Assembly: GCA_024709245.1 (NCBI GenBank)
Contig: JANJXB010000051.1
Coordinates: 1 to 43,083 of the forward strand
Length of the DNA stretch: 43,083 bases
Origin: Acholeplasmataceae bacterium
GTDB taxonomy: Bacteria; Bacillota_I; Bacilli_A; Acholeplasmatales; Acholeplasmataceae
Direction: 5' to 3'
Part shown: one piece after another, positions 11,760-33,691 of the stretch
How positions within the stretch are numbered: position 1 is the first letter of the stretch
Layout: each line of letters begins with the position of its first letter
Position numbers and translations under genes: made by a program
Notes under the pieces: generated by a model
The model's input: the letters and a program-made list of their open reading frames with translations, nothing else
Told to the model about the DNA's origin: nothing
Databases searched by the model: none

Positions 11760-14700
11760 TTATTCTAAGAGATATACGTAAAGTCCAATCATATCATGAT
11801 ACACTTGTTCACTGCCTAAAGTCCATGTCATGTTATTGATGTGAATTTGGATTGAACTGAGTCCTCTTAAATCGACTTCAACGTGGAACACATTCGGTAT
11901 TGATGTTTCAGTGATCGAAGTGATCATTAACATCTGTCCAGAGTTGTTGTAGATTTGCAACTGATCCAAATCATTGATGTCAATCATATAGTCAAATCCA
12001 ATATCAAATCCTGTCGTTGTTGTATTGGTGACATATCCTCGATTCAAGATATTAATGGTGCCCTGGCTATAAATCTTCATCATGCCACCGACATTGACTT
12101 CATCACCCGTTACTTTAACCATCATCATGTAACCCACATCATTCATGGTTGTAACATAAAGAGGTTGATTGGCTCCGGGAATCATGATTTCTTCCCAAGT
12201 ATAAGGATTAACTCGATACCATTGTAGGCTAATTCCACCTGAAACTTCTTGTCCTGTTAAGCTGTTATAAACTGTAACACTTTCAAGCTTCAATCCGCTG
12301 CCCACAAATGGACTCATGATACCTGTCAGATACATGCTTTGATCCAATGACCATCCTGCAAAATAAGTTTCAACTGAAGTGTAACCAAAGGATACAACAT
12401 TCGATACACTACCATGATCAGAAATCAAACGCACTGTCATCGGTCCATCCAGTTTCAAACTAAAATTGTTCCAAGTTGTGACTAGAGGCATACCATAATA
12501 GATCAAATCATACCACGCAAGATCAACTGGATCATAATACTGTAACTTCAGTTCACTGAATCCAAGTTCCCAAGGATATGGAAACTCAAGATCAACAATC
12601 AAATCGGTACCACCGAACCAGTCGTCGTGTCGGTCGACTTCAACCACTCTAAGTCCGCCAAAGGTATTTGGAGGAAGTGTTCCTGATACAACGGGTATCA
12701 TACCCATGGATCCTGGATTGTAACTTTGCATCGGATCTTCATATGCAGTTACAGCGAGATCTACAGCAAAATCAAGATTAAAACCATTGATAGTTGCTGT
12801 AACATGGAGGGTCACTGTATTTGGGAATTCTGATTCTGCAAATTGAATGACATTCCCGGTAAGTGTTGCATCCAGTGCATTGGCAGGATCTAAAACGAAA
12901 CTGTAGGTACCACCGTAAATCGGATGAGATGTTGAGAAATGATAACTTAAGCCATCCTTATACAATAAACCCATTTCATGCATGATGTAAGCTTTCATGA
13001 TGTCTGCTATTTCAGAATCCAGAAGCGTTACATTAAAGATTGCATCTTGAACAACGATGCATGTCCATCGAGGTCCAAACGCTGTGTAATAAAGTTGATA
13101 ATTGAAACATGACAGTCGAACATCATGATCTATGAATGTACTTAAGACATCTCGAATGGGTTGATCATAAATTTGCAGCATGATCGTATTAAGTCCATCC
13201 GTGAGGTAATAAGCATTGTCCCATGTGTTATAAATCAATCTTCCTTGTACCAAATGGTATAGCATGGGCTGTGCCACTTCATCAGCTTGTTTCGCAAGTA
13301 CTTCAAGCTCGGTTTCTGTCACAACATAAGGTAAACTCTGAAGTGTTGCGACAGGCTCGATACGTGCATTCCAAGCGTATCCACTCGCGAGAATGAAACG
13401 ATCATATTCTCTCTTTTGCGTGAAAATAATGACTTCATCGCCAACTTGTAAGGATGGATAACCTTCTCCGTAGAGATAAGATGAACTGACTCTATCATGG
13501 AAAATCACATCGCCATAAGGTGTTTTGTATAAAACAATCACTAATACTTTTGCATACTCATCATGCTCTAATTGATAGAATTCATCAATGGATAAAATAG
13601 GATAGGGTTGAGCAGTCAACGTGAAGACATGAGTCACTTCAAGTTCACCAATTGTAATCACGACTTGGAATAAGAATTGTGTTTCAGCAGTGATTTCTAA
13701 GATGAGCATTTCATCCAAATCGATGAATTCAGTACTTGAACCGATATAAGTCCAAACCAATGTTGCTTGGAGTGGTTCAAATACAGATGGTAACTCGATT
13801 GTATCACCTGGTCTAAATATCTTGCTTGTTTCAAGATGGTATGTACCTAAATCAATCAGTGCATCCATTCTTTCTTGATCTGTTGCATAATCGAGACTTA
13901 AACCCTGTTCTCTTGCAATAACCAGCATACGATCAGGTTCATATTCCTGAACGTTTAAATTGGGAATCAAGAAACCAACAAGTCTTAATCTTAATCCTTG
14001 AAGCATTCTTAACGAATCAAATGGATTATGAATTTGAATGATAGGCTCTTCTTGCATCATGAACATTGGCATAAAGGGTAAGAAATCACCAGTGCCAAGT
14101 CCTTCTGTAATCAGTGGCATATAAGAGTCATCCATGAATCCTAAATATCCAACCACTTCAACGAAGATACCCCAGTTGTTTCGATCTTCCATATCAAGTG
14201 CCCATAGACTGTCAATGGTATGAGATACCAATGTCATCGGATTTGGCATGTTATGTGATAATACTTCAACTAAAATCGTTGTTTCAGGATCCCACATCAA
14301 AGCAATACCCTCATGTGTTGCTCGGTATCCCGAAATGATGACTTCGTCACCAATCACCAAATCCATCATGGGTGCGATGAATAAATGACCGGTTGCATCC
14401 GCAATGATGGCTGGACCATCACCACCGAAATTTGATAAGACCACAATGCCTCTGAGCATGAAGAAATCCCCATCCACGCCAGCCTTAAATTCAGCAATCG
14501 TTTGTGTGTCAATCGGAACAACATGAAGTTGGAATTCGACGATTTCAACAGCTTCACCGACCGTAATGGTTGCTCTAATGTCAATAAAGATTTCTTCTTC
14601 GATGAGATGAGAGATAGCTCCCGTTGAAAGCGTATATAAACCAGCATTTAAACCAAAAACTTCGTATAAAACTGTAAATTCATAGGGAGGATAGGTATCC

Positions 14701-17700
14701 GGTAATACATGGAAAGCACCAGGTCTTAATATCTTTTCTTGATAATATCCTTCGATTTGATCAGCCAAAAAGAGCGCAAGTTCTGCATCGGTAAATCGCA
14801 AATCAATATCTCCTGGATAATCGATGTAGACAAGAACCATGAAGAGTTCACTGCCTGCTCGCATTGCAAATCCCTTAATTCTGACTTGAACACCAACATA
14901 TTCCATGAGATGTTCATATCCAGATGGACTAGCAACAAAGATTGGAACATTTTCTTCCCCTTCACTCAAATAGAACATGTCACCCATCGGATTAATCATC
15001 AGAGTGCCTTCAAGTTCGTAATACTTAAGATGTAATGATGGATCTGTTGCATCCAGTAAATTAAACGCTTCTAATGTGATCGGTGTTGCAACTAAAGGAT
15101 GCGGTACACCTGAGTTCATGATGGATTGAACAGTCTGTTCAGGATCATTCGCTAAAATCATCATGCCTTCAGAATTCATCAACATACCTTTTAACAAGAC
15201 TAAGTCACCAATCTGAATCATTTCATTGGTTGAAACGCTCATCAAGATACCCGTTGAATCCGCTATAATGATCATGTTTTGTTCCAATTGAATGAAGAGA
15301 ACAACACCTTGTACATAATACATCTCTTCATCGGTGACTTGGAGGAACTCTGCAACTGTCAAAATATCGATGGGTTGAACAAAGAGTTCGATATCAACTA
15401 TACCTGTTGCTGTGCCATAGGTGAGTGTTGCAATTAAACTAATCCATGTATCTTCTGTGATGTCTGGACTGATCTGCATTGTTAAAATATTGATCAAATG
15501 GCTATCTTCTTGGGTGACTGCATATTCAACAAAGATGTCAAAGACTGGATGTTGTAATGGTAATTCTGCAATCTGACCTGGATAGAATACAAGACTTTCT
15601 AAGAATGTTTGGAGCATAATCTTGATCAGGTCAATGAACTCTTCATCGGTATAATCCGGTTCAATCGCATCCGGTAGACCGGTAAAGATGAACATCATCG
15701 AAGGTATTCCATCAAAATTCGGTAAACTAATACCTCTGACAACGAGATCGAATTCAGTCAATCCAGAGAAATAGGAATACATGTCTTTGTCAAAGATGAC
15801 CATGGGTAACTGATGGATGCCATCGGTTAAGTAAACCATGTGTTCAAGTTCATCCAAAACAATCGTTCCTCTGATTTCAAAATATTGTACCCAATAAATA
15901 GGATTGTAGACATCTAAAGCATTAAACTGACTGATGGTAATTGGAGTTGAGATGAGTGGGGATTCTTGATCAACACCAATGACTTCAATATCAAGTCCTT
16001 CTTCTCCGCCGACCAATACATAGACACCTTCAAAAGGCATCTTGTATCCACCGACAATAACTAAATCACCAGGCTTGAATTGGTTGATGATTTCAATCGG
16101 TTCACCTTGAACTGTTGAAGATTCATCAAGCATAATCACTAGCGTTCCAGTTTCATCAGCAATCACTGCAATACCAAACATTGGATGTGAAATCAGAATG
16201 ACACCTTGAACCTTATAGTAACCCATATCTTCTGCTAGTTTGAAATCTTCAATAGACAGCAATTCAACAGGCTTCAAGATGATTTGGACTTCGATGAATC
16301 CAGTTGCTTGGTTGATTGTCACTGTAATTCTTAAATCAATGATTTTTTCTTCAACAACAGGTTGGAAGACACCTGTGGTAGGATTATAAAGTGATGCGTT
16401 AACTCCAAAGGTCACTGCTGAAATGGTTGCACCAAAAACAGGTTCAAGTGTAGGAATCATGAATGTCTGTCCGACATAGAAGACACGGCCATCCAACATG
16501 GATTCACCAAACAATAACAATTCATCCACTTTATCTTGATCTGTATAATTTTCAACAACAACAGCATTGGAATGTCCACTGTAGAGAATATGCCATTCAT
16601 AGTTATAACCATTGAAATCATGGATAATGGCTTGGAATGTAACTCTGCTACCCAATGCTGCCATGAATGGGTCATTCATTGGAGTCACAGACTTATAGTT
16701 AATAGCAATCGGTCGATCGCCACCCAAATCAGCAATGTAATAGGTCATGCCAAGTTTCATGAGGAAACCAGAGATGATGATGGGTTGACCATAGTGATAA
16801 GGATCATGTTCATCGGCTGTGGAGACTTCATTAAATGACATTGGACTGTATTCTGGCATCGTGATGGGGGTACTATTGGATGTCAAATTAGTAATGGTTA
16901 TCAGTTGTGGTGTGTTTTCAAAAGGTTGATAATCGGCTTCAAACTCAATCACATCACCAACGACGAATGAGCCAGGGAATCCTAAAACAAACATGTATCC
17001 TGTGCCATCATAGATGTAGAATCCTGGATTCATACCTGGGAACATGTAATAAATGATACCTCTTACCTTGACATGGTATGGATTGGTTTCCAAAATGGTG
17101 CTGATTCTTGTGTAACCATCATCAATAATCCATTTCGCATGAATGGTAATATCTGATGCAGGCATCGAATGGAAGTCAAATGGGATGGTGTATGTATCAT
17201 CTGCATACCAACCATCAAAAATCATGCCTTGTTTGGTAATGGGTCCTGGATATGGAACTGGTGTGTTGTAAGCTACGATTTCATCATCAATTAAAAAGTC
17301 ACCGCCATGGGTATTGTAGACAACGGTATAGAAATTGATGGTCCACTTACCATATGCATTGAGATGATTGGCTGTCATCACAGTGATGTCAAAGGGTTCT
17401 AGGAATAATTGGTCTTTGAACCAGCCAGCAAAAGTATATCCAACTCGAACTGGATCCGATGGAGCGATGATGGCTTGACCTAAACCATACACTTGAACCA
17501 ATGGACTCGATATACCATCATGCCAAGTTAAAGTATATTGATTTTGAGTATATTTCGCATAGAGAGTTGCACCACCGAGTGGCATGTTTACTTCGGTGAA
17601 TGGAATGAGTAAATCAATGTCTGTAAACCAGCCATCAAAAGCATGGTAAAGTTTCACAGGGATTGGTAAGACCAAAGCTGTTCCATAACCTTGAGTGATA

Positions 17701-18677
17701 TCCGTGACTGAACTACCACCATTTTCTTCAAAAGTGATGGTGTAGTTGTTTACTGTCCACTTCGCATAGAGTGTGATGCCATTCAGTGGCATGGTTCCAA
17801 ATGTGTATGCTGTTGTCAAAGCAACATCACTGTACCAACCACCAAATGTATAACCGTCTCGAGTAGGATTTGCAGGTTCTGTTACAGCACTTAAATAGGC
17901 TTGAGTGATATCTGTGACTGAACTACCACCATTTTCTTCAAAAGTGATGGTGTAGTTGTTTGCTGTCCACTTCGCATAAATGGTAAAGTTGCTCGTTGGC
18001 ATGTTGCCAAAAGAGTATGGGAGATTCAAAGCTGCATCGGAATACCAACCACCAAATGTATATCCGGTTTTACTTGGATTTGCTGGAGCAGTAATTTGAG
18101 TTCCAGCATTCTGTGTGATAGGTGCAATTAAACTACCACCATTGGTTTCGAAGGTTAATGTTGCAGTAACAATCACTTCATTCCATTTGGCATAGATTGT
18201 AATGTTTGCATTGGGCATTGTTGAAATCGTATAAGCTGTTAGAAGCCCAACATCACTAAACCATCCTCCAAAAGTATATCCTGATTTTGTTGGATCTGCA
18301 GGTGGCGTAATGGTTGCCCCTGCAACCAATGTAATGGGTGCGATTGTGCTACCCCCATTGGTTTCAAAGGTCATGGTAAATGAACTTAAGATTTCAGTCC
18401 ATTTCGCATAAAGCACAATCTCACTTTGTTGTGTCAAAAGCACAGCAATCGTAAACGGTGCCGTAAGCGCCTCATCTGTGAACCATCCATCAAATTCGAA
18501 TCCATTTCTGATGGGTTCAGGTAAGTCAATTGAGGTGCTGTTGATGCTAATCGTCATGTCTTCAACTTCTTCACCTCCGTTTTCTTCGAAGATGAGATTG
18601 ATTTCCTCACTACCGGTACACGCTGCTATACCGAAAATCACGAGGATGATTGAAAGCAATATCCATAATTTACGCAC
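11760..18677 (-). CDS. Giant modular surface lipoprotein: about 7 Listeria-Bacteroides (InlB B-type/Flg_new) repeats, then alternating OB-fold-like and Ig-like modules
   Basis: Lipobox VIFGIAAC; repeated GYTFGGWYSD...MPxxxxTIYAKW units; repeated YYKVQGVIL...IIADxTG...GDxVIVxGY modules. GTG start preferred because AAAAAAGGAGG lies just upstream. Confidence 0.85.
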   Translation of the reverse strand: MRKLWILLSIILVIFGIAACTGSEEINLIFEENGGEEVEDMTISINSTSIDLPEPIRNGFEFDGWFTDEALTAPFTIAVLLTQQSEIVLYAKWTEILSSFTMTFETNGGSTIAPITLVAGATITPPADPTKSGYTFGGWFSDVGLLTAYTISTMPNANITIYAKWNEVIVTATLTFETNGGSLIAPITQNAGTQITAPANPSKTGYTFGGWYSDAALNLPYSFGNMPTSNFTIYAKWTANNYTITFEENGGSSVTDITQAYLSAVTEPANPTRDGYTFGGWYSDVALTTAYTFGTMPLNGITLYAKWTVNNYTITFEENGGSSVTDITQGYGTALVLPIPVKLYHAFDGWFTDIDLLIPFTEVNMPLGGATLYAKYTQNQYTLTWHDGISSPLVQVYGLGQAIIAPSDPVRVGYTFAGWFKDQLFLEPFDITVMTANHLNAYGKWTINFYTVVYNTHGGDFLIDDEIVAYNTPVPYPGPITKQGMIFDGWYADDTYTIPFDFHSMPASDITIHAKWIIDDGYTRISTILETNPYHVKVRGIIYYMFPGMNPGFYIYDGTGYMFVLGFPGSFVVGDVIEFEADYQPFENTPQLITITNLTSNSTPITMPEYSPMSFNEVSTADEHDPYHYGQPIIISGFLMKLGMTYYIADLGGDRPIAINYKSVTPMNDPFMAALGSRVTFQAIIHDFNGYNYEWHILYSGHSNAVVVENYTDQDKVDELLLFGESMLDGRVFYVGQTFMIPTLEPVFGATISAVTFGVNASLYNPTTGVFQPVVEEKIIDLRITVTINQATGFIEVQIILKPVELLSIEDFKLAEDMGYYKVQGVILISHPMFGIAVIADETGTLVIMLDESSTVQGEPIEIINQFKPGDLVIVGGYKMPFEGVYVLVGGEEGLDIEVIGVDQESPLISTPITISQFNALDVYNPIYWVQYFEIRGTIVLDELEHMVYLTDGIHQLPMVIFDKDMYSYFSGLTEFDLVVRGISLPNFDGIPSMMFIFTGLPDAIEPDYTDEEFIDLIKIMLQTFLESLVFYPGQIAELPLQHPVFDIFVEYAVTQEDSHLINILTMQISPDITEDTWISLIATLTYGTATGIVDIELFVQPIDILTVAEFLQVTDEEMYYVQGVVLFIQLEQNMIIIADSTGILMSVSTNEMIQIGDLVLLKGMLMNSEGMMILANDPEQTVQSIMNSGVPHPLVATPITLEAFNLLDATDPSLHLKYYELEGTLMINPMGDMFYLSEGEENVPIFVASPSGYEHLMEYVGVQVRIKGFAMRAGSELFMVLVYIDYPGDIDLRFTDAELALFLADQIEGYYQEKILRPGAFHVLPDTYPPYEFTVLYEVFGLNAGLYTLSTGAISHLIEEEIFIDIRATITVGEAVEIVEFQLHVVPIDTQTIAEFKAGVDGDFFMLRGIVVLSNFGGDGPAIIADATGHLFIAPMMDLVIGDEVIISGYRATHEGIALMWDPETTILVEVLSHNMPNPMTLVSHTIDSLWALDMEDRNNWGIFVEVVGYLGFMDDSYMPLITEGLGTGDFLPFMPMFMMQEEPIIQIHNPFDSLRMLQGLRLRLVGFLIPNLNVQEYEPDRMLVIAREQGLSLDYATDQERMDALIDLGTYHLETSKIFRPGDTIELPSVFEPLQATLVWTYIGSSTEFIDLDEMLILEITAETQFLFQVVITIGELEVTHVFTLTAQPYPILSIDEFYQLEHDEYAKVLVIVLYKTPYGDVIFHDRVSSSYLYGEGYPSLQVGDEVIIFTQKREYDRFILASGYAWNARIEPVATLQSLPYVVTETELEVLAKQADEVAQPMLYHLVQGRLIYNTWDNAYYLTDGLNTIMLQIYDQPIRDVLSTFIDHDVRLSCFNYQLYYTAFGPRWTCIVVQDAIFNVTLLDSEIADIMKAYIMHEMGLLYKDGLSYHFSTSHPIYGGTYSFVLDPANALDATLTGNVIQFAESEFPNTVTLHVTATINGFNLDFAVDLAVTAYEDPMQSYNPGSMGMIPVVSGTLPPNTFGGLRVVEVDRHDDWFGGTDLIVDLEFPYPWELGFSELKLQYYDPVDLAWYDLIYYGMPLVTTWNNFSLKLDGPMTVRLISDHGSVSNVVSFGYTSVETYFAGWSLDQSMYLTGIMSPFVGSGLKLESVTVYNSLTGQEVSGGISLQWYRVNPYTWEEIMIPGANQPLYVTTMNDVGYMMMVKVTGDEVNVGGMMKIYSQGTINILNRGYVTNTTTTGFDIGFDYMIDINDLDQLQIYNNSGQMLMITSITETSIPNVFHVEVDLRGLSSIQIHINNMTWTLGSEQVYHDMIGLYVYLLE
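17690..17978 (-). repeat. Pair of ~79-bp near-identical direct repeats (17690-17768 and 17900-17978, 210-bp period) within the B-repeat region
   Basis: Shared CTTGAGTGATATC(C/T)GTGACTGAACTACCACCATTTTCTTCAAAAGTGATGGTGTAGTTGTTTRCTGTCCACTTCGCATA with about 2 mismatches. Confidence 0.85.
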
Positions 18678-18717
18678 AAGAATGCCTCCTTTTTTCACGA
18701 TGCAAGAGAAGACAAAA

Positions 18718-18816: not shown

Positions 18817-20208
18817 TCAGGGTCTTTTGATCCCTCGATTGACTTTGTCAACATAGGCTTGAATCTCAAACTTACGTTCAAGTCCATGACTATTCATATA
18901 TCTCAGTTTTCCAAAGACTTCTCTTTCTGTCCAAGCACGATCATGTTTACCATAACACCAAGCCACGCTTGCATAACTGTTCGGGTCTCTACCATCAATA
19001 AAATACTTGTTGTTTAGAGCAATGGTCGTTTGATATGCTTCTTGATAGGTAGGCATCCATTCAATGATTTTTTTAGCCCAGTACATACGCATGTAATTGT
19101 GCATGTAACCTGTGTCACGCATCTCCTTCATCGCAGCATTAAAATAAGGATCATGGGTTTGGCTCTGTTCAAGTTCAAACTTCGTGTAAAGATAAGGACG
19201 TTGATCGAAAAGATGTTTTTCCATGGTTGAATATGCCCAGGGTTCTGTCATTTCCTCGAACTTGTCATACCCCTTCACATAAGTGACATAATTCAGTGCA
19301 AGTTCTCTTCTCACCAATAGTTGCTCAATATAGGCATCAAGCACTTGACCTTCCAATTGTCCGTGATCATGTGCTAAAAACAGACGTTCCATGATATCGA
19401 GTGTAGAGATCTGACCAAAATGAATATACATCGACATCAAGGATGTATAATCTGTCGATGGATCATTACTCTCGAGATAGTGACTGGATTTCTGGTTGAT
19501 AAATAAAAGGATGAGTCTAGATGCTTCAATGTAACCACCGTGATAAGTTTCACTTCGCTTGACGGATCGGTCGATATCAAGTTTGGCAAGCAGTGAGTCA
19601 ATATCTGTCAAGTCGACATCACTCATCAATTCCAATGCTTGGATATTCTTCAAGATACTGATCTTTGAAAAATCACGATAAAGTGGATAAAGTTTTGTAA
19701 TCTTAGGTCTCAAGGTATATGCGCCATACTCGGCATGATCCGATGAGACTCTCACAGGAACAATGGCATCGGTATCGACCATATCGATATGTAGATCAGG
19801 GTACTGAACTTTGGCAACATCAAGGACATGCTTACGCCACTGTTTTTGATGTCTTAAGTATCCATAATCCATGACGAGTGCTGCGGCTTGTTCCAAATAA
19901 GGAATAATTCCTAACTCGGGAGAAATCAATTTAATGACAACATTGATTTTAAAATGGTCTAAGATTGCTTTGACTTCTTTCAATCCTTCCAGCATGAATG
20001 CAAAATGTCTTTCATTGGCATCAGGATAGTGTGTGGATAAACCAAAAAAGACCAGAAGTGGTAAATTTTTATGATTTGCAATCTCTATAGCATGATTTAA
20101 TGCATGATTAAAATGGATGCGTTGAGCTTGTTGCATCCAGTAGATGACATATTTCTGATTTGCATTTGATTTTCCAGATTGTAGATGAATGATTCGACCC
20201 GGGTTCAC
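18817..20208 (-). CDS. Deoxyribodipyrimidine photolyase, class II-like
   Basis: VIYWMQQAQRIHFNHALNHAIEIANHKNLPLLVFFGL; RRELALNYVTYVKGYDKFE; TGYMHNYMRMYWAKKIIEWMPTYQEAYQTTIALNNKYFIDGRDPNSYASVAWCYGKHDRAW. Confidence 0.92.
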   Translation of the reverse strand: MNPGRIIHLQSGKSNANQKYVIYWMQQAQRIHFNHALNHAIEIANHKNLPLLVFFGLSTHYPDANERHFAFMLEGLKEVKAILDHFKINVVIKLISPELGIIPYLEQAAALVMDYGYLRHQKQWRKHVLDVAKVQYPDLHIDMVDTDAIVPVRVSSDHAEYGAYTLRPKITKLYPLYRDFSKISILKNIQALELMSDVDLTDIDSLLAKLDIDRSVKRSETYHGGYIEASRLILLFINQKSSHYLESNDPSTDYTSLMSMYIHFGQISTLDIMERLFLAHDHGQLEGQVLDAYIEQLLVRRELALNYVTYVKGYDKFEEMTEPWAYSTMEKHLFDQRPYLYTKFELEQSQTHDPYFNAAMKEMRDTGYMHNYMRMYWAKKIIEWMPTYQEAYQTTIALNNKYFIDGRDPNSYASVAWCYGKHDRAWTEREVFGKLRYMNSHGLERKFEIQAYVDKVNRGIKRP

Positions 20209-20217
20209 AAGAGCCTC

Positions 20218-21006
20218 CTAGATGAAGAAGATAAGGGTGAAAAGTGATGCTGCCAAACTTGATATGAAATTGACTGCGTCATTGGTGATGTAGATGAGGC
20301 CAGATGATAAGACAACCTTTTCATTGGGTAACCAGCTTTTTTCAGTGATTTTTCCCGATTTGATACCTTTAAATTGAGCTTGAAGACTTGCTCCCAATAA
20401 TGAATCGATTAAAGAACCTAGAAAGCCACACAAAGTAATGATGAATGCATACTCAATCATATTTGGAATGGTGATGGTTTTGCTTAAAGCATATATACCG
20501 ATGAAGATGACTGCAATGAATAGGGCTCCCAAAAATGATGATAATGTTCCGAGTCCAGAAATAGCTCCTGAAACACCTTTGGGAACCGATTTGAAATTAA
20601 TGATATTCATGGTTTTTCCCTTTGAAAGTGCACCGATTTCGGATGCCCATGTATCTGAATTCGATGATGCAATCGAAACAACCGCTGCTAACATTAAGAT
20701 TTCATGTTGTAAAAAGAAATACACGACTGAAAAGACAGTTGCTACCAATCCATTGGATAGCACTTGGATGTAATTTCTGCCCTGACTGTATTCTTTTTCC
20801 TTTTTTTCGTGAATCTTCGTCAATAAGGATGATGAAATGAAAAAAGCGATTAAAGATCCCCAAATCGTCATTCCTCCAAAAGTATAAATCGTGGTTCCAA
20901 GTAAAGTTGCAGCTAAAAATCCATCCCATGTCAATGATCGTTTGAGATACGCCAAAAAGGCAACCCCAAAACTAAGTAAAAATCCAATCCATAAATCAAT
21001 CAACAT
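20218..21006 (-). CDS. DUF92 family integral membrane protein (family that includes plant VTE6)
   Basis: Hydrophobic; LTWDGFLAATLLGTTIYTFGGMTIWGSLIAFFISSSLLT; SNSDTWASEIGALSKGKTMNIINFKSVPKGVSGAISGLGTLSSFLGA; DSLLGASLQAQF. Confidence 0.88.
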   Translation of the reverse strand: MLIDLWIGFLLSFGVAFLAYLKRSLTWDGFLAATLLGTTIYTFGGMTIWGSLIAFFISSSLLTKIHEKKEKEYSQGRNYIQVLSNGLVATVFSVVYFFLQHEILMLAAVVSIASSNSDTWASEIGALSKGKTMNIINFKSVPKGVSGAISGLGTLSSFLGALFIAVIFIGIYALSKTITIPNMIEYAFIITLCGFLGSLIDSLLGASLQAQFKGIKSGKITEKSWLPNEKVVLSSGLIYITNDAVNFISSLAASLFTLIFFI

Positions 21007-21020
21007 GAGAATCTCCTCGT

Positions 21021-21677
21021 TTAAATAATGAATAATAAATAATATGCAAGCGTGGTGAGCAAAGGTACCGACAGATTATCCAGACCCTTTGGTGTGAATA
21101 ACTCAATGAAAGTTGCAATGAGTGCAATCACAAGAGAAATCATGAGCCATCCAGTAACGCCTTCCATGGACAAGAGTACCATGGATACCGAGAGGGATGC
21201 AATAAACATTGCTATACTACCTTCTAAGGATTTCCCAAATAATAATTGATGTTTTCCAAATTTCTTACCAATGACCGCAGCAAATCCATCACCATATCCT
21301 AAAATCAATATCCCAAGTCCACCAATATAAGGTTGTTTTATGAAACCAAAAAATACGATGACTAAGATGAGTAGTGATATTGGAAAATAGACAGTTCCTA
21401 AATGACCTTGTCCACCTCGCTCCATGGCTTTAAAAATATTTTGTCGATATGAGAGGTAATTGAGTCCAATGAAAGTCATCGGTGGAACCATCGCATACCA
21501 TAACGAATCTTGACTGGTGAAGAAAATCATGGCCAAAATCCACCAATTTGAAACACCAATATGGATGAATTTTCTGGCTCCCTCATCACCAAGGATGTTT
21601 TTCTTTTGTAAGATGGTTGAGATCCCCATGATGAGGAAAACAAATACATAGCTCAATACAAGTCCTAATAGATTCAT
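21021..21677 (-). CDS. SEC59/DGK1/VTE5-family CTP-dependent polyprenol/phytol kinase-like membrane protein
   Basis: RKFIHIGVSNWWILAM; GYGDGFAAVIGKKFGKHQLLFGKSLEGSIAMF; FTPKGLDNLSVPLL. Confidence 0.85.
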   Translation of the reverse strand: MNLLGLVLSYVFVFLIMGISTILQKKNILGDEGARKFIHIGVSNWWILAMIFFTSQDSLWYAMVPPMTFIGLNYLSYRQNIFKAMERGGQGHLGTVYFPISLLILVIVFFGFIKQPYIGGLGILILGYGDGFAAVIGKKFGKHQLLFGKSLEGSIAMFIASLSVSMVLLSMEGVTGWLMISLVIALIATFIELFTPKGLDNLSVPLLTTLAYYLLFII

Positions 21678-21679
21678 TG

Positions 21680-21733
21680 CTAATCTCCTATTTGCCCCAT
21701 TTCGTCATGATGGGAGGTGCTGATCTGAATCAT
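21680..21733 (-). other. Candidate 17-codon leader ORF (MIQISTSHHDEMGQIGD*) ending 2 nt before the VTE5-like start
   Basis: Read on minus strand after AAAGGTG; TAG precedes CAATG. Confidence 0.3.
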
Positions 21734-21843
21734 CACCTTTGACAGTCAAGTTCACTTCACGCAGTAAAAATTCATTTATAAGGCAATCCTGGACTATATT
21801 TCTAAAATATAGGACACTCTTTACCTATTTGATGTATATTTAA

Positions 21844-21852
21844 ATTATAACA
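21844..21852 (-). promoter_or_regulatory. Extended -10 promoter for the VTE5-like/DUF92/photolyase operon
   Basis: Minus strand TGTTATAAT; weak -35. Confidence 0.5.
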
Positions 21853-21893
21853 AATCCGCATACGATGCACATGAAGAAAACATATGATTGTGG

Positions 21894-21915
21894 GAAACTG
21901 TGAGAATTCAGTTTC
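21894..21915. promoter_or_regulatory. Inverted repeat GAAACTG-N8-CAGTTTC, candidate operator between divergent promoters
   Basis: Perfect 7-bp arms, about 70 bp from each inferred TSS. Confidence 0.55.
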
Positions 21916-21940
21916 AAAAATGTTAAGATAAGCGCATTTT

Positions 21941-21969
21941 TTGAACTTTATGAAATCCTTCTCTATAAT
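21941..21969 (+). promoter_or_regulatory. Promoter for heliorhodopsin
   Basis: TTGAAC-17 nt-TATAAT. Confidence 0.75.
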
Positions 21970-21998
21970 GAAGATGAAACAATAAAAAGGAGAAAATT

Positions 21999-22799
21999 AT
22001 GCAACAGACAACATTACAGAAATTAAAGAAGTTTAACATCATCATGGGTGGTTTCCACCTGATTCAAGGGTTATTGATGATTGTAATTGCGATTTTCGTG
22101 ATTGGTGAAATCAATCCCGCTTTCCAAATCATCGTTACCCAGAATTTCCTTGACTTTGATACCGTTAATCAAAGACTTTTCTTAAACTCAAAAGAACTCT
22201 TTGAATTACCCTTTGGTATCATGGTAGGCGTCTTCCTGTTATTATCTGCACTCGCACATGCACTGATTTCATTACCTAAGAAACTCAACGATCAGTACAA
22301 TCGCGATTTGGAAAAAGGCGTAAACCGTTTTAGATGGTTTGAATATGCACTTTCATCATCTGTGATGATTGTACTCATCGCAACCCTCTTCGGAATTTAT
22401 GACATCGCATCCCTCACATTGATTTTCATTGTGAACGCAGCTATGAACTTATTTGGTCTTGATATGGAATTGCTCAATGCAAACCGTAAAGAAGGCGAAA
22501 AGGTTAAGTGGGGCGCATTCATTTGGGGTTCTATCGCAGGTATTGCTCCCTGGATTGCAATCTTCTTCTATATGACAGGTGCAGGTGGAGATATCACTCC
22601 TCCATGGTTTGTGTGGGCAATCATCGGTACATACTTCGTTGCATTCAACACATTCCCAATCAACATGATTCTACAATACAAAAAAGTTGGTAAATGGAAG
22701 GACTATCTCTATGGAGAAAGAACTTACATCGTCCTCAGTTTGGTTGCTAAATCCATTCTTGCATGGTTAGTTCTCTTTGGAGCATTCCAACCATCTTAA
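21999..22799 (+). CDS. Heliorhodopsin
   Basis: GGFHLIQGLLM (TM1 His), LSALAHAL (TM2 His), RWFEYALSSSVMIVLIA (TM3 counterion Glu), GERTYIVLSLVAKSILAW (TM7 Schiff-base Lys); seven hydrophobic segments. Confidence 0.95.
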   Translation: MQQTTLQKLKKFNIIMGGFHLIQGLLMIVIAIFVIGEINPAFQIIVTQNFLDFDTVNQRLFLNSKELFELPFGIMVGVFLLLSALAHALISLPKKLNDQYNRDLEKGVNRFRWFEYALSSSVMIVLIATLFGIYDIASLTLIFIVNAAMNLFGLDMELLNANRKEGEKVKWGAFIWGSIAGIAPWIAIFFYMTGAGGDITPPWFVWAIIGTYFVAFNTFPINMILQYKKVGKWKDYLYGERTYIVLSLVAKSILAWLVLFGAFQPS

Positions 22800-22807
22800 T
22801 ACACTCT

Positions 22808-22828
22808 GCCAGGCTAGCCTGGCTTTTT
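22808..22828 (+). terminator. Terminator after heliorhodopsin
   Basis: GCCAGG-CTAG-CCTGGC-TTTTT. Confidence 0.85.
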
Positions 22829-22843
22829 CTTTAGAGGTGACTT

Positions 22844-23806
22844 ATGATTCTTAAGAAAATCATCCATCCCGAATACTTTCAAGGAAACAAGAAAAAAACC
22901 AATTACTTTGAGGGTTGGTACTATAAACTTGTCTCAAAGGATCAGAAGCATACCCTTGCATTCATTCCTGGTATCAGTTTGAATGAGAAAGATCCTCATG
23001 CATTCATTCAGGTGTTTATTTCTTCTCGAGAAGCTTTGGAAACCAAATTAAAAAGTTACTATTTTAAATTCGATCTGTCTGACTTTAGTTATAGCCACGC
23101 ATCATTCAATGTTTCAATTGGATCCAATTTCTTCTCTTTGAACAAACTTTCAATCGATTTATCCAACGAACAGGTTAAACTTTTTGGTACTCTGCAAATA
23201 GAAGAGATCACACCCATTCAAAAGAGTATAGGATCTCCGAATATCATGGGATTCTTCGGTTATCTAGGATTCATGGAATGTTATCATGGAGTCATCTCCA
23301 TGAGTCACCGCTTGGATGGTGTATTACTCATCAATCAACAACCCATCTCTTTTCACGACGCTAAAGGCTATATAGAAAAAGATTGGGGTAAATCATTCCC
23401 AAGAGCCTATGTTTGGCTACAATCCAATCACTTTAAGGATCCCAACACCTCATTTATGTTCTCGTATGCAGATATTCCTTTTCTAGGATTCTATTTTAAG
23501 GGTCTCATTGCGAATCTTAGAGTTCGCGGTAAGGAGTATCGATTTGCAACCTACAATCGATCTAAAATAGTGAAGGAAGAAATCGATCAGCATCGAGTGC
23601 ACTACCGTGTTAGGAAAGGAAAATATGTCTTAGAAGTCAATGCAGAATCAACGACCTCTATCGGATTGGCTTCTCCGAAAAATGGGATGATGATCAATCA
23701 GATTAAAGAAGGACTTTCTGGCTGGATTCGTGTCCAATTATTTGAGAAAAACATTTTGGTCTATGAAGATACAGGTTATCATGCAGGCATTGAAATCATG
23801 AAGTGA
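22844..23806 (+). CDS. Tocopherol cyclase (VTE1)-family protein
   Basis: HPEYFQGNKKKTNYFEGWYYKLVSKDQKHTLAFIPGIS; GYIEKDWGKSFPRAYVWLQSNHF; family-typical EGWY and EKDWG motifs. Confidence 0.87.
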   Translation: MILKKIIHPEYFQGNKKKTNYFEGWYYKLVSKDQKHTLAFIPGISLNEKDPHAFIQVFISSREALETKLKSYYFKFDLSDFSYSHASFNVSIGSNFFSLNKLSIDLSNEQVKLFGTLQIEEITPIQKSIGSPNIMGFFGYLGFMECYHGVISMSHRLDGVLLINQQPISFHDAKGYIEKDWGKSFPRAYVWLQSNHFKDPNTSFMFSYADIPFLGFYFKGLIANLRVRGKEYRFATYNRSKIVKEEIDQHRVHYRVRKGKYVLEVNAESTTSIGLASPKNGMMINQIKEGLSGWIRVQLFEKNILVYEDTGYHAGIEIMK

Positions 23807-25162: not shown

Positions 25163-25915
25163 TTACTTGAGTTTTCGGCCTTTCTTCACCAGGGTTTGAA
25201 CGATAAAACTTGCAACATCGTTGGCATATTTCTTCGGACCAAACCCAGCATCATAACCAAGTTCTTTGGCAAGTCCGAAATTGATTCTTGGTCCACCAAT
25301 GATGGCGATGAATCGATCTCTCATTTTTTCTGCTTCGAGAAGTTCAACGAAAGCTGTTAGATTTTGAATATGGATGTCTTTTTGTGTCACAGTTTGACTG
25401 ATCAGAATGACATCTGCATCATACTCGATTGCTTTTTCGAGTAATACCTCATTTTCGACTTGTCCACCTAGATTATAGGCTTTTATGCCACGATAGCGTT
25501 CGAGTCCATAATGTCCATTATATCCTTTCATGTTCATGATGGCATCAATGCCTACCGTGTGTGCATCAGTTCCTGTCGATGCTCCCACAATGACGATAGG
25601 TGCTTGTAGATGATGATCAATGAATCTTTCGACTTCTTCCATCTCCATGGATGAGGATTCTATCTCAGTCACAGAGAGTGTTGTTGTATCTATCTGATGC
25701 TCGACAGTTCCATAAATAATATAGAAAGAGAAGGACTCCGATAGTGCAGCACTGTGCACGACTGCAGGGTTATGAATGCCCATGAGTGATGCAAAACGTT
25801 TTGCTGCTTCTTCGCCTAATGCATTATGTGGCATAGGAAGTGAGAAGGATATTTGGATTTTGCCATCATTCATGGTATCTCCATAGGGTCTAATCCAATT
25901 AGATTTGAGAGGCAT
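25163..25915 (-). CDS. kamE: D-lysine 5,6-aminomutase beta subunit (B12-binding)
   Basis: GASTGTDAHTVGIDAIMNMKGYNGHYGLERYRGIKAYNLGGQV; downstream of kamD. Confidence 0.93.
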   Translation of the reverse strand: MPLKSNWIRPYGDTMNDGKIQISFSLPMPHNALGEEAAKRFASLMGIHNPAVVHSAALSESFSFYIIYGTVEHQIDTTTLSVTEIESSSMEMEEVERFIDHHLQAPIVIVGASTGTDAHTVGIDAIMNMKGYNGHYGLERYRGIKAYNLGGQVENEVLLEKAIEYDADVILISQTVTQKDIHIQNLTAFVELLEAEKMRDRFIAIIGGPRINFGLAKELGYDAGFGPKKYANDVASFIVQTLVKKGRKLK

Positions 25916-27476
25916 TTTTTTTCACCTCGAGTCTTTCAAGCATCAAATCCAATACTGGATTCATGTAGCAATCATCTTTGATCAAAACACCTTTCAATCC
26001 TTTACCACCATTTTCATGTCTGGAAATACCAGCAAATGTTCCTTTCTCAAGTGTTTTAAACATGCCATCTTTTTTGATCTCATCGAGGAGTGATTGTGCA
26101 TGACTTAAAACTTGATGTGCTCGCTTCATGATGATTCCATCTGTCTTATAGGTGATTTCATCTCCAAAGTTTTGAAATGCTTTTTCGATGTAGTTCGCAT
26201 TATCGAGTGCAATTGCACGATCACTTACAAAAGGAGTGTGGATTGCTTCTGTCATCATGCCAAGAAGTTGAATGGATTGATGCGATGTGACGGAAGCAAT
26301 GTTAAATAAGGCATTTTGAATGGTTCCTTTGAAAATGTCTCCTGTCATGTGTTTGGTTGGAGGCATATATTTGAGTGGAGAATTCGGAAATATCTCTCTT
26401 GTCATTTCCGCTTGTGCAAGTTCATATAGAAAGCTATTCTCAAATGATGGATCAATCTCATAGGCATGACCCAAACCCATGAGTGATTCAGGCATCTTGG
26501 CAAGTTTTGCAAATTGCTCATTAATGAACTGTGAAGCTAAAACTGTATGAGCATGTTCGATTGCATCAGATGTGGTCAAATAGTTATCTTCACCTGTGTT
26601 GATGATGATTTCTGCATAGGCAGATAATACTCTTGAGAAATATTGGTCAACAAAGGTTCTTTTCATGTTGATATCTCGAAAGATAATTCCATACAGTGAA
26701 TCATTGAGCATCATATCCAAACGTTCTACTGCACCTAAAGTTGCAATCTCAGGCATACATAGACCTGAAGCATAATTGACAAGTTTAATGTATCTACCTT
26801 CAGCTTCGGATGCTTCATCAAGTGCTTGACGCATCAGTCTAAAGTTTTCCTGAGTTGCGAAAGTTCCACCAAATCCTTCCGTAGTTGCTCCATTTGGAAT
26901 GTAGTCTAAAAGAGACTGACCTGTGCTTCTAATGACAGCAATGATGTCTGCACCTTTTTTAACTGCAGAGATGGCTTGTTTGATGTCTTCATAAATATTA
27001 CCGGTCGCAACAATCACATATTTGTTGGGAGTTGATTTTTTCGGTGTTCTATCTAGCCATTCTCTACGAATTGATTTCATCTCATCAATCCGTGCCAAAG
27101 TCTTCTCGAAATAAGGCATTAAATCGCCTAAATAAGGGCTTTTTGGCAATTCTTCATAGACTTTGAGATTAATAGCACCCGATTGAACTCGATGCGCAAT
27201 TTCATTGGGAGTTGCCATGTGTTCATGACATGCATACGATAGGTAATGACAGATACCTTTTGATAAATTGGCTTTTGAAAATACATGATCAACAACAACG
27301 TTCACAAGAGGAACCATCAGTTCATTCACTCCCACAACACCAAGCATTCTTAAAAGTGATCGCTCCACTGATACTGTCGTGTGCAAGTCGATGTGTGCTT
27401 GTACTTGTTTCGCAATGATGTTTGCATCATGCCTGCATCGAGATATCACTTTTGGATCGAGATTGAGTTTTCCCAT
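25899..27476 (-). CDS. kamD: D-lysine 5,6-aminomutase alpha subunit
   Basis: KVISRCRHDANIIAKQVQAHIDLHTTVSVERSLLRMLGVVG...; operon context. Confidence 0.93.
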   Translation of the reverse strand: MGKLNLDPKVISRCRHDANIIAKQVQAHIDLHTTVSVERSLLRMLGVVGVNELMVPLVNVVVDHVFSKANLSKGICHYLSYACHEHMATPNEIAHRVQSGAINLKVYEELPKSPYLGDLMPYFEKTLARIDEMKSIRREWLDRTPKKSTPNKYVIVATGNIYEDIKQAISAVKKGADIIAVIRSTGQSLLDYIPNGATTEGFGGTFATQENFRLMRQALDEASEAEGRYIKLVNYASGLCMPEIATLGAVERLDMMLNDSLYGIIFRDINMKRTFVDQYFSRVLSAYAEIIINTGEDNYLTTSDAIEHAHTVLASQFINEQFAKLAKMPESLMGLGHAYEIDPSFENSFLYELAQAEMTREIFPNSPLKYMPPTKHMTGDIFKGTIQNALFNIASVTSHQSIQLLGMMTEAIHTPFVSDRAIALDNANYIEKAFQNFGDEITYKTDGIIMKRAHQVLSHAQSLLDEIKKDGMFKTLEKGTFAGISRHENGGKGLKGVLIKDDCYMNPVLDLMLERLEVKKNASQI

Positions 27477-27478
27477 TT

Positions 27479-28453
27479 CTATTCCTCTCCTTTCACATTG
27501 ATGACTGGTAGATTCAATTCCCGTTGAAATCTTGTCATCATTTCGTTTTGATCATAGCAAGCACCATCCGGTCGAAATGGATTGATGGTCACCATCAAGA
27601 TCGGAATGGGTCTTGCCACTTCGATTTGAATCTTAAAATGATTCAAGGCTCGAAGATGTTTTTGTGATGCCATCCATTTCGATGGATCTTCGATGATGAG
27701 TTTGATGGATTGAATGCTTCGATTGAAAATGCAATCGATGATGGATGAAGTGATTGCACCTTGAATATAGATGGCATCGACTTCATCTTGATGCTGGTCA
27801 AGAATGGATTCTAAGTTTTTTATCTTTTTTTCATCATGTTTCACAGAATGATCTTTGAGGTAAATTGTGATTCCTGCATGAGAATCCAATGCATATGTCG
27901 TTTTATTCATACTGAAAAGACTCAGAAGATCTCTGGTTTTTTTGATTGTCTCATCCATCACAGGACTAAAAGATGCTCCTGCTGCGAGTACAATACCTTC
28001 CATCACTTCAATATTGGAAAACGTAAGTCTATTGAAAGCACCATCAATCAAGATCTTATCACAATGTTTTTTCATTGTTTTCACGACTTGATTTAACTCT
28101 TGATTGGTTGATGGGCCTGCGACAATCACGGTTCCTTCAGATGCTATTTCTACAATCAAAATTTGCCCAAGTGGTGTAATGTAATCGGTATTTTCAATCA
28201 CTTTCCATACAACATTGGATGATTCAAGACACGATAGAGTGGTTGCAACCACCATATTGGGTCTTACCATGATTGCTGGTTTTGGAAAAAAGTGAATTTG
28301 ATCTAAAGGTTCACCATCCAACCCAATGGATGTCAGTCCAATTCTGATTTCAGGATAGATTTCAATGATCTTATTCAGTGTGGTTGTTTTTCCGGCATTC
28401 TTGGCAAGACCCATGATTCCGATGACGGATACACCATCAAGAATGTCTCTCAC
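27479..28453 (-). CDS. kamB: KamB-like P-loop protein (putative aminomutase reactivase component)
   Basis: P-loop GLAKNAGKTTTLNKI; located between kamA and kamD as in known lysine-fermentation clusters. Confidence 0.75.
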   Translation of the reverse strand: MRDILDGVSVIGIMGLAKNAGKTTTLNKIIEIYPEIRIGLTSIGLDGEPLDQIHFFPKPAIMVRPNMVVATTLSCLESSNVVWKVIENTDYITPLGQILIVEIASEGTVIVAGPSTNQELNQVVKTMKKHCDKILIDGAFNRLTFSNIEVMEGIVLAAGASFSPVMDETIKKTRDLLSLFSMNKTTYALDSHAGITIYLKDHSVKHDEKKIKNLESILDQHQDEVDAIYIQGAITSSIIDCIFNRSIQSIKLIIEDPSKWMASQKHLRALNHFKIQIEVARPIPILMVTINPFRPDGACYDQNEMMTRFQRELNLPVINVKGEE

Positions 28454-29711
28454 GATTCATACGCTCTTTTCTTTTTAATAACTCAGGTTCCATCGAGATT
28501 CGATTCCCCTCAAGCAATCCTGATATACCATCCAAACGGTGTGCTTTACAATCCTCACACGCACATTCGGATTTATAATTTTCAGGTTCACTGTATGTGG
28601 TAATGACACCTTCAAAGTTTCTCAAGATCACTTTGCCTGGAGCTTGCGATACAACATAGTTTGGCATCACTGGAATTTTTCCACCACCTCCAGGTGCATC
28701 CACAACAAACGTTGGGACAGCAAAACCGCTGATGTGTCCCCTTAATCCTTCGATGATTTCAATCCCCTTACTGATCGATGTTCTGAAATGTTCAATGCCT
28801 TTGGACAAATCACATTGATATAAATAATATGGTCTCACTCGAATCGCGATTAATCCCTTGACAAGTTTTCGCATGATATGTACACAATCATTCACACCTT
28901 TAAGAAGGACACTTTGATTGCCAACAGGTATACCCGCATCAGCGAGTCTGTCAATAGCAAGTTTACTTTCAATTGTAATTTCATCTGGATGATTAAAATG
29001 TGTATTCACCCAAATTGGGTGATATTTTTTGAGCATATTCACCAATTTCTCAGTCACACGCTGAGGCATAACAACAGGTGTTCTTGTCCCAAATCGAATC
29101 ACTTGGACATGATCAATAGCTCTAAGTTTTTTCAAGATATACTCGATGCGCTCATCAGAAGCCATGAATGCATCGCCGCCTGAAAGGAGGACATCATTGA
29201 CTTCTTCATGATTTTTGATGTACTCAATTGCTCGATCGATCTGCTCTATTTTCAATTCAGCATCTTTCTGACCCGCAAATCTTCTTCTTGTACAATGTCT
29301 GCAATATGTTGAGCACATATCGGTAATCAAAAAAAGTACACGATCAGGATAGCGGTGTGTGAGCCCAGGAACAGGTGAATCATGATCTTCTGCTAAAGGA
29401 TCCAATAGATCATTTTTTCCCATCAATAACTCAGATCCAAAAGGTATAGCTTGCTTTCGGATTGGGCAATTCGGGTTATTTGGATCAATCAATGTTAAAT
29501 AATATGGGGTGATGGCCATGCGTAAAGAACCGAGGACTTGCTCGATGGTATGCTCTTCTTCAGTGGTGAGTGTCATGTATTTTCTCAACTGAACCGCATT
29601 TTTGATTCGATTGGATGTCTGCCATTTCCAATCGTTCCAGTCATCATCGGACACATCTTTGAAGTATTGATATCTTCTTTCGAGATATGCCTGATTGAAT
29701 TCTGCTTTCAT
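28437..29711 (-). CDS. kamA: L-lysine 2,3-aminomutase (radical SAM)
   Basis: MCSTYCRHCTRRRFAG (CxxxCxxC), VLLSGGDAFMAS, VDAPGGGGKIPVMPNYV; start at 29711 after GGAG. Confidence 0.95.
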   Translation of the reverse strand: MKAEFNQAYLERRYQYFKDVSDDDWNDWKWQTSNRIKNAVQLRKYMTLTTEEEHTIEQVLGSLRMAITPYYLTLIDPNNPNCPIRKQAIPFGSELLMGKNDLLDPLAEDHDSPVPGLTHRYPDRVLFLITDMCSTYCRHCTRRRFAGQKDAELKIEQIDRAIEYIKNHEEVNDVLLSGGDAFMASDERIEYILKKLRAIDHVQVIRFGTRTPVVMPQRVTEKLVNMLKKYHPIWVNTHFNHPDEITIESKLAIDRLADAGIPVGNQSVLLKGVNDCVHIMRKLVKGLIAIRVRPYYLYQCDLSKGIEHFRTSISKGIEIIEGLRGHISGFAVPTFVVDAPGGGGKIPVMPNYVVSQAPGKVILRNFEGVITTYSEPENYKSECACEDCKAHRLDGISGLLEGNRISMEPELLKRKERMNRERHS

Positions 29712-29721
29712 ATGTTTCTCC

Positions 29722-30753
29722 CTATGTGTATCGTCTCGTGAATAAATCGAATAATGCCTTACTTTCTCTAAAAATGTCAAGCGTGAATGTTGCATGTGAT
29801 TCCGTATAACCATTTCCAATCATCATCGTAATGTCTTTTCCGACACCTTCAGCACCGAGTGCTGCCTTCGTAAAAGAGGTTGCCATAGAAAAGAAATATG
29901 CGATTCCATGATCTTTCGTGGTTAAAATGGTGGTCATTTCTGTGTTTTGAACATTGACAACATTGATGGTTAGATCTGCCAATCTACCCTGTGTCACACG
30001 ATGAACCATTTCGTAGATGTGAATGCTTTCCGTCGCATCACCAACAAGTATATGATCACAATATCCAAGAGAATCTAATTCTCTTTTTTGGGCTTGATCA
30101 TAAACTAATCCAATGACTATCCCTGTGGGTTTTACCATTTTGTGTGCTTGATAGCAGCAGAGAACTCCACTTTTACCTGCAGCACCAATGACAAATACCG
30201 TATCTCCTTTGTGTGCAAGCTTATTGACTTGTGCGGGAGCACCTGCAACATCCAATGCGGATAGGACAAGTTTTTCATCAAGATCTGGAGGCAAAATGGA
30301 GAAAAGTCCTGAATCAAAGAGAATCGCTTGTCCTACAATCCGCACCTGGTCGGTGTTTAAGTCGATATCAAGAATATCAACTAAATGGAGTGGTGTGAGT
30401 GAAAGTGATACCAGTGTTGCGATGCGCATGCCTTTTTTGAGGGTTTGATCATGAAACATGGATCCCACTTCACGTACAGTACCTATCAACATACCCCCAC
30501 TTTTAGTGATAGGGTTTTGCATCTTACCTTGTGTTGTGATGATATCTTTCATCATCTGTCTCATTTTTGTCAAATCATCGTTGCAGGCATTTCGGATCTG
30601 ATGAAAGGATGCTGAATCAATGTTTAAAATATCGACGTCAATCAAGACTTCATTCTCATAAATCATGGGTGTAGAGTCAATTTGATAAGCTGCTTGAGGT
30701 AGAACACCTTTAGGTTCGATGACTCTGTGTGTTCCATACTTGCATGGTGTCAT
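29722..30753 (-). CDS. kdd: L-erythro-3,5-diaminohexanoate dehydrogenase
   Basis: KYGTHRVIEPKGVLPQAAYQIDS; GDTVFVIGAAGKSGVLCCYQA; operon context. Confidence 0.92.
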   Translation of the reverse strand: MTPCKYGTHRVIEPKGVLPQAAYQIDSTPMIYENEVLIDVDILNIDSASFHQIRNACNDDLTKMRQMMKDIITTQGKMQNPITKSGGMLIGTVREVGSMFHDQTLKKGMRIATLVSLSLTPLHLVDILDIDLNTDQVRIVGQAILFDSGLFSILPPDLDEKLVLSALDVAGAPAQVNKLAHKGDTVFVIGAAGKSGVLCCYQAHKMVKPTGIVIGLVYDQAQKRELDSLGYCDHILVGDATESIHIYEMVHRVTQGRLADLTINVVNVQNTEMTTILTTKDHGIAYFFSMATSFTKAALGAEGVGKDITMMIGNGYTESHATFTLDIFRESKALFDLFTRRYT

Positions 30754-31580
30754 TTGCGTTTTCCCCCGATTCCCAAAATCATTCTAGCTTCATTTGGCGA
30801 TGCAATTTCTCTGCCAAAAGATGCTGCCATATGTGCAACTTTTTGAACCAAAACACCATTACCTTCAGCAAGTTTTCCTTTTTCAAGGTACAGATTATCT
30901 TCAAGTCCTACCCTGACGTGTCCTCCATGCTTGATCGAAAGTAAGGCAAGTGGAAATTCGTATTTGCCTATGCCAGCAACACTGAAGGTTGCATCCTTTG
31001 GAATGCTTTCTTTAAGAAATATAAAATCTCTTTCCTCTCCAGTCATTCCACCATTCACACCGAGAACAAAACTGAAATGCAAAGGTGCATGAATCAGTCC
31101 TTTTCGATGCAATCTAAGCACCTGATCAATATGTCCTTTTTCAAAACATTCAAGTTCTGGAAATATATTTCTATCCTTCATGATTTTTGCAAAATGAATG
31201 ATATCATTTTCAGTATTGACAAATATAGAATCTCCACCAAAATTGAGTGTTCCACAATCTAAAGTCGCCATTTCGATGTCAAGTTCAGTCGGTTGTAATC
31301 TTTCCTCTCGCTTCATGCCAATGGCTCCACCTGTTGAAGGTTGGATGATAACATCAGGACATCTAGACCGTATTTTTTCGATGATTTTTTGATATCGATC
31401 TTGATCTTGTGTTGGAGTACCATCATCAAATCGTGCGTGAACATGGATAATCGATGCACCAGCAGAGTAAGCTTGGAAAGCTTGTTCAGCCATTTCATCA
31501 ATCGTATATGGGACAAATGGATTGTCATTTTTAGTGACTTCTGCACCTGTGATTGCACAGGTGATGATGAGTTTATTCAT
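30750..31580 (-). CDS. kce: 3-keto-5-aminohexanoate cleavage enzyme
   Basis: [83 protein letters not shown]. Confidence 0.95.
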
Positions 31581-31965: not shown

Positions 31966-31966
31966 A

Positions 31967-33675: not shown

Positions 33676-33691
33676 AATGGCTCCTCTCTTG

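Follow-up and report, generated by a model that had tools for sequence, protein, structure and literature searches.

Why a heliorhodopsin (HeR) gene should diverge from two genes resembling the kinases of plant phytol salvage is the question raised by positions 18817 to 23806 of a 43,083-nucleotide stretch of Acholeplasmataceae DNA (the window), a 43-kb contig of a 1.54-Mb, 126-contig genome (G000, 92.7% complete). An earlier note, made from the sequence alone, described a minus-strand set of VTE5-like, DUF92 (VTE6-like), and class II photolyase (phr) genes diverging from HeR and a gene of the tocopherol cyclase family (TOC), and proposed that the locus salvages a prenyl alcohol for a membrane isoprenoid or a chromophore precursor. 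All five complete open reading frames (ORFs), with their coordinates and strands, were confirmed. A survey of 160 genomes of Acholeplasmatales, in which g and f labels denote groups, makes it reasonably probable that the locus is a divergent light and photoprotection module, with a minus-strand arm that in relatives is a carotenoid operon containing salvage kinases and that in the window lineage has lost its crt genes.

Clustering of neighboring genes revealed two families located between VTE5-like and HeR in relatives, identified as CrtI (TIGR02734; E = 7e-131) and the phytoene/squalene synthase CrtB (PF00494; E = 5e-62). The VTE5-like and DUF92 genes clustered with crtB in 20 genomes, 18 of which also had crtI in the cluster, in several gene orders. 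For example, the minus-strand arm of five relatives (loci L124, L126, L128, L133, and L151) consisted of crtI-crtB-VTE5-DUF92-phr diverging from HeR, and the arrangement crtI-crtB-VTE5-DUF92-phr // HeR-TOC was intact in G028, G029, G031, and G077. The order was VTE5-crtI-crtB-DUF92 in the g2 genomes G003 and G005 to G007, phr was appended to the crt-kinase cluster in g1 and g12, and in f4 (G150, G152, G153, and G154), where the locus has no HeR, TOC and crtI-crtB-VTE5-DUF92 were direct divergent neighbors. HeR-TOC diverged from crtI-crtB-phr without kinases in g14, and g10 and part of g1 carried just phr and HeR-TOC, without kinases or crt genes. These clusters resemble bacterial crtI-crtB operons in placing crtI beside crtB but differ in including a kinase pair and in occurring mostly in genomes with no prenyl-diphosphate synthase gene; the window differs further in having no crt genes at all. 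(In G042, locus L106/L151, the HeR frame was split into two ORFs at 6926 to 7721 and TOC lay 5 kb away, representing either a pseudogene or an assembly error.)

The window is a version of this locus that lost crtI-crtB, which is why the tie to carotenoids was invisible to the earlier reader. crtI-crtB was absent from the locus in G000 (the window genome), G030, G032, G039, and G044, and a genome-wide search of the same five for crtB (PF00494) returned no match. Because G032 and G039 are 99% and 98% complete, incompleteness is an unlikely cause. A tblastn search of the window with 52 CrtB and CrtI sequences found no convincing remnant (best E = 0.006, in unrelated places). TOC sequences of the five genomes formed one group (88/88), but G000 and G030 were not joined with G032 and G039 in the VTE5 tree, a disagreement that allows for one or two crt losses. 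The kinases were kept without crtI-crtB in G000, G030, G032, and G039, so that in this lineage the diphosphate must have another user or the pair must be a relic.

CrtB requires a C15 or C20 allylic diphosphate. The all-trans prenyl-diphosphate synthase family (PF00348) was found in 8 of the 160 genomes; the search recovered it in each of the 14 control genomes. Eighteen genomes with CrtB lacked PF00348, and 17 of these had a VTE5-like kinase, the exception (G083) being 84% complete. PF00348 was present in four of the five g14 genomes, which have CrtB and no kinases. Through IspH or HMG-CoA reductase, most of these genomes have a source of C5 units. (G015, a single-contig genome with crtI-crtB-VTE5-DUF92 at locus L223, had no match for IspH, HMG-CoA reductase, or PF00348.) Given the substrate that CrtB needs, the simplest interpretation is that two kinases act in turn on a prenyl alcohol: the VTE5-like protein and then DUF92 would phosphorylate a scavenged alcohol to the monophosphate and the diphosphate, which would feed CrtB in cells without an all-trans synthase, and CrtI would desaturate the CrtB product. 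The PF00348 distribution supports such salvage in relatives. The earlier proposal of prenyl alcohol salvage therefore gained ground there, with the kinases tied to carotenoid synthesis, a pathway whose crtI-crtB genes the window has lost.

The candidate kinases themselves differ in how readily they are recognized. DUF92 matched PF01940 (E = 1.2e-64; 218.6 bits) over residues 11 to 253 and contained the conserved motifs N.DTWASE.G and G..G...DS.LG...Q. The VTE5-like protein of the window contained GYGDGxAAxxGxxxG...GKSxEGS, which was conserved across orthologues; we take D..AA..G...G...GKS.EGS to be the CTP-site signature of the VTE5/FOLK/dolichol kinase family. VTE5-like genes were counted in 26 genomes (27 matched; one with only a distant homologue was left out, and a contig-edge fragment in G035 was included) and were present in all 25 genomes with DUF92. 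CrtB also occurred in 26 genomes, 21 of them shared with VTE5-like (Fisher 4e-17, phylogeny ignored). Plasmid records yielded no match for VTE5-like and one for DUF92, from a region of Thermomicrobium roseum that carries no crt annotation. The corresponding salvage kinases, VTE5 for phytol, FOLK for farnesol, and VTE6 for phytyl-phosphate, are known from plants and cyanobacteria (PMC9782597). The present pair resembles phytol salvage there in combining membrane proteins of these two types, always together and beside isoprenoid genes; here, however, the hosts are nonphotosynthetic bacteria, and the partner in relatives is CrtB rather than tocopherol or phylloquinone synthesis.

The light-responsive side of the module begins with HeR, which matched PF18761 (E = 2.1e-94; 315.8 bits against a cutoff of 26.7) and NF038020 (E = 4.2e-89; 298 bits against a cutoff of 100). 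Its Schiff-base lysine in transmembrane helix 7 (LSLVAKS) and counter-ion glutamate (RWFEY) aligned with TaHeR (6is6). It was 96% identical to HeR of its nearest relatives (Acholeplasmataceae metagenome-assembled genomes, e.g., UBA6190) and 69% identical to TfHeR from Trichococcus flocculiformis, the nearest studied HeR. TfHeR binds a class II photolyase, raising its activity about threefold and extending it to green light; binding depends on R162 and K227 and is enhanced by E97 (PMC9769723). The window HeR retains R162 and K227 and has D in place of E97, so on sequence grounds photolyase regulation is the best-supported role for this protein. By analogy with the Trichococcus HeR, it may use exogenous retinal to tune photolyase by direct binding, and it may act on TOC as well.

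The coupling of HeR to photolyase, which the earlier note placed in one light-related neighborhood, agrees with this published biology. The window and T. flocculiformis share a photolyase neighbor, that of the window being a probable class II enzyme, in addition to the two essential residues; they differ in that the window photolyase is divergently transcribed rather than in the same operon and in that TOC is the downstream partner of HeR. The photolyase matched TIGR00591 over residues 5 to 456 (E = 1.5e-130), at 436.5 bits, below the model cutoff of 550, and PF00875 (E = 1.3e-13). Photolyase, found in 44 genomes, co-occurred with HeR in 35 and diverged from HeR at many HeR loci of the order and from HeR-TOC in most; it is one of ten recurrent HeR neighbors (PMC11109279). 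HeR loci outside Acholeplasmataceae (among L038 to L111) included photolyase in several cases and one weak CrtI-like match (L097), with no match to TOC, VTE5-like, DUF92, or crtB. Within this sample, the full gene combination seems restricted to this order.

Retinal synthesis was considered as a role for the locus and rejected: no match to Blh/Brp (PF15461) exceeded the cutoff in the 160 genomes (other carotenoid oxygenases were not tested), and a lone PF15461-like stretch in G031 had two stops and scored below the cutoff. Given this lack of Blh/Brp across the order, the retinal is probably of external origin. With crtB also missing from the window genome, the suggestion that the locus makes a chromophore precursor found no support. 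A second, different HeR copy without TOC was present in G026 (L143), G030 (L144), G035 (L142), G039 (L147), and G044 (L145); in G030, two neighboring genes for distant CrtI-like oxidoreductases (537 and 531 amino acids) lay approximately 4.5 kb from this copy.

TOC is a conserved partner of HeR. HeR was counted in 39 genomes (two weak matches excluded) and TOC in 40 (distant f2 homologues excluded), and both occurred in 34 (Fisher 2.6e-23, a descriptive value that ignores phylogeny). The two genes were adjacent in 24 genomes spanning g1, g2, g10, g12, and g14; gene-order comparison gave 22 of these, to which G075 and G039 (from a separate contig that carries TOC next to part of HeR) were added. 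Chance is far from sufficient to explain the linkage, as the same genes adjoin in relatives of several genera. Relatives thus keep the neighborhood, which was the first check set by the earlier note. The kinases are not obligate partners of HeR, since many genomes with HeR and TOC, such as those of g10 and part of g1, lack them.

Despite its family label, TOC need not have anything to do with tocopherol. It matched PF14249 (E = 5.3e-17; 62.3 bits against a cutoff of 26.6), and its structure model (predicted local distance difference test score [pLDDT] of 76) gave AttH (2ich; 5e-9) and kievitone hydratase (7a0q; 6e-9) as best Foldseek matches, with VIA Z scores of about 17 to 21 over 260 to 288 residues against CghA, Phm7, Fsa2, AttH, and kievitone hydratase. 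The predicted fold has two lipocalin-like lobes, as in AttH, kievitone hydratase, 25-phosphosteroid lyase, and Diels-Alderases, and it matches hydratases and cyclases acting on hydrophobic substrates. TOC thus shares its modeled fold and PF14249 membership with the CrtC/AttH/VTE1/Diels-Alderase superfamily, although the solved members are only 7 to 13% identical to it. Published work on AttH connects this fold with isoprenoid metabolism and with hydroxyneurosporene synthase, CrtC (PMC2954199). Judged by fold and genomic context, TOC is probably a lipocalin-fold protein that converts or binds an isoprenoid rather than one involved in tocopherol synthesis. The names tocopherol and VTE1, which the earlier note had carried over, describe the family only; no tocopherol pathway gene, such as homogentisate prenyltransferase, was present among the classified neighbors, a set to which no dedicated search was added.

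Expression of TOC is probably linked to that of HeR. From last sense codon to next start, the minus-strand genes are separated by 12 nt (DUF92 to phr) and 17 nt, and HeR and TOC by 47 nt, a gap that contains a terminator-like hairpin. Only some 20 bases separate the hairpin from the start of TOC, too few for a full promoter, and TOC is therefore probably made by read-through from HeR past an attenuator. Comparable hairpins occurred in g1 and g10 relatives (L115 to L130), where position was kept and exact sequence was not.

TOC is also found apart from HeR. Six genomes with TOC had no detected HeR (G007, G033, G037, G149, G152, and G154). In G045 (L229 and L230) and G035 (L232), crtB was followed directly by a divergent TOC, with crtI and HeR absent from the locus and HeR elsewhere; in G023 (L218) and G024 (L214), phr and TOC adjoined with no HeR between them, and a different HeR copy lay elsewhere (L135 and L134). 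Plasmid records gave three TOC matches, all from gut Clostridia. PF14249 homologues on such plasmids (L279 and L280; Pusillibacter and Monoglobus) had unrelated neighbors, the Monoglobus homologue overlapping a gene for an FAD-dependent oxidoreductase, and no HeR annotation stood beside them in the stretches examined.

Several observations weigh against salvage into carotenoids and leave room for other explanations. The window genome has neither crtB nor PF00348, leaving the kinase pair without its expected customer, and G003 and G005 to G007 have both PF00348 and the kinases. The VTE5-like protein of the window matched nothing in Pfam or NCBIfam, so its name rests on the motif and genomic context; 4 of 22 relatives matched PF01148 (CTP_transf_1) weakly (best E = 7.6e-4), the best PDB profile hit had E = 0.21, and an AlphaFold2 model from six sequences was poor (pLDDT, 58; predicted template modeling score, 0.42). 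The Fisher statistics disregard shared ancestry, and gene order is the stronger evidence. In addition, UppS (PF01255) was found in 114 of 160 genomes and IspH in 97, though PF00348 was absent from 152, and this spread of UppS means that another source of allylic primer may exist that could also feed CrtB. The kinases might accordingly recycle or supply a UppS-type polyprenol carrier, or prime UppS, and lie beside crt genes only through shared isoprenoid use. VTE5-like proteins are similar to dolichol kinases (PMC9782597), and the window genome retains UppS and the kinases without crtB; nevertheless, most UppS genomes lack the pair (VTE5-like matches in 27 and DUF92 in 25 of 160), which tracks crtB rather than uppS in both distribution and operon order, and this explanation appears improbable. 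Slightly less improbable, but still unlikely, is that the kinases of the window lineage are functionless relics of the crtI-crtB loss. Besides the five genomes without crt genes, of which G044 (80% complete) had no kinase match either, this idea draws on long DUF92 branches in G030 (L130; 0.70, against 0.31 in its sister G000) and G032 (L123; 0.58, against 0.11 in its sister G039), where relaxed constraint is possible. Both frames are nonetheless open and the motifs intact in all four kinase-bearing genomes, and comparison of the window with G030 by NG86 gave nonsynonymous (dN) and synonymous (dS) divergence of 0.34 and 1.9 for DUF92, and a dN of 0.16 with saturated dS for VTE5-like, indicating selection since the split. 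The salvaged diphosphate in this lineage would then serve another user.

Two further explanations concern the connection between the arms. The locus could be a photoprotection island only, held together by shared light or oxidative-stress regulation, with no metabolic chain from HeR and TOC to the kinases. In g10 and several genomes of g1, HeR, TOC, and phr are retained although kinase and crt genes are all lacking, and carotenoid and photolyase genes flank some HeRs elsewhere, the Znf-HeRs (PMC8612252). The gene orders of f4, where the crt operon faces a divergent TOC and HeR is missing, and of g14 show that TOC tracks isoprenoid genes too, so that an island alone is not likely, although slightly more probable than the relic idea. 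TOC could instead be a retinoid- or carotenoid-handling lipocalin serving HeR through chromophore delivery, protection, or modification, as its presence in 34 of 39 HeR genomes, the 24 adjacencies, the predicted fold, a probably external retinal supply, and likely attenuator-linked cotranscription would permit; the six TOC genomes without detected HeR and the homologues beside unrelated genes in gut Clostridia make such dedicated service rather unlikely. Returning to salvage, the fuller proposal is that several Acholeplasmatales make carotenoids without an all-trans prenyl-diphosphate synthase by using prenols salvaged by the VTE5-like and DUF92 proteins, that HeR and an attenuator-linked, probably isoprenoid-acting TOC form the light-sensing arm of the module, and that the window lineage lost the pigment genes only. 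We advance it tentatively, at a little short of an even chance.

Features of the locus are collected in Table 1. Searches at the gathering threshold found no Rfam element in the locus. Elsewhere in the window, directly past the photolyase gene, a 2,312-amino-acid lipoprotein-like ORF with TFEENGG...GYTFGGWYSD...YAKW repeats occupies 11760 to 18698 (minus strand). A lysine riboswitch (33708 to 33880, minus strand) and a cobalamin riboswitch (37857 to 38029, minus strand) are near genes at 25163 to 33762 that, judged by eye, appear to encode lysine fermentation.

Table 1. Genes and regulatory features of the divergent HeR locus, in window coordinates
Feature	Position	Strand	Basis or remark
Photolyase (phr), probable class II cyclobutane pyrimidine dimer type	18817-20208	-	TIGR00591 phr2 and PF00875; last gene of minus-strand arm
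DUF92/VTE6-like membrane protein, predicted prenyl-phosphate kinase	20218-21006	-	PF01940
VTE5/FOLK/dolichol-kinase-like membrane protein, predicted CTP-dependent prenyl-alcohol kinase	21021-21677	-	Motif and genomic context
Divergent intergenic region, containing HeR promoter	21678-21998	None	Between VTE5-like and HeR; crtI-crtB site in relatives
HeR promoter, TTGAAC-17-TATAAT	21941-21969		Good sigma-70-type promoter
Heliorhodopsin (HeR)	21999-22799	+	PF18761, NF038020
Terminator-like hairpin and T-run, GCCAGGCTAGCCTGGC-TTTTTC	22808-22823	+	Likely attenuator in the HeR-TOC gap
TOC, labeled "tocopherol cyclase family" (PF14249), with a predicted two-lobe lipocalin fold	22844-23806	+	

Text searches of the surveys of HeR neighborhoods (PMC11109279 and PMC8612252) found none of the words tocopherol, DUF92, and phytol, and no literature combining heliorhodopsin and Acholeplasma was found in a search of papers available without subscription. 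According to a review (PMC9782597), genes for kinases salvaging farnesol, geranylgeraniol, and phytol had been identified in plants and cyanobacteria alone, with the pathway called "missing" elsewhere. The locus and its relatives offer compact bacterial candidate kinase pairs for prenol salvage, probably in culturable hosts, and their distribution predicts a role for the kinases, as a stand-in for a prenyl-diphosphate synthase beside crtB. PF14249 is added to the conserved partners of heliorhodopsin, which bears on what heliorhodopsins regulate.

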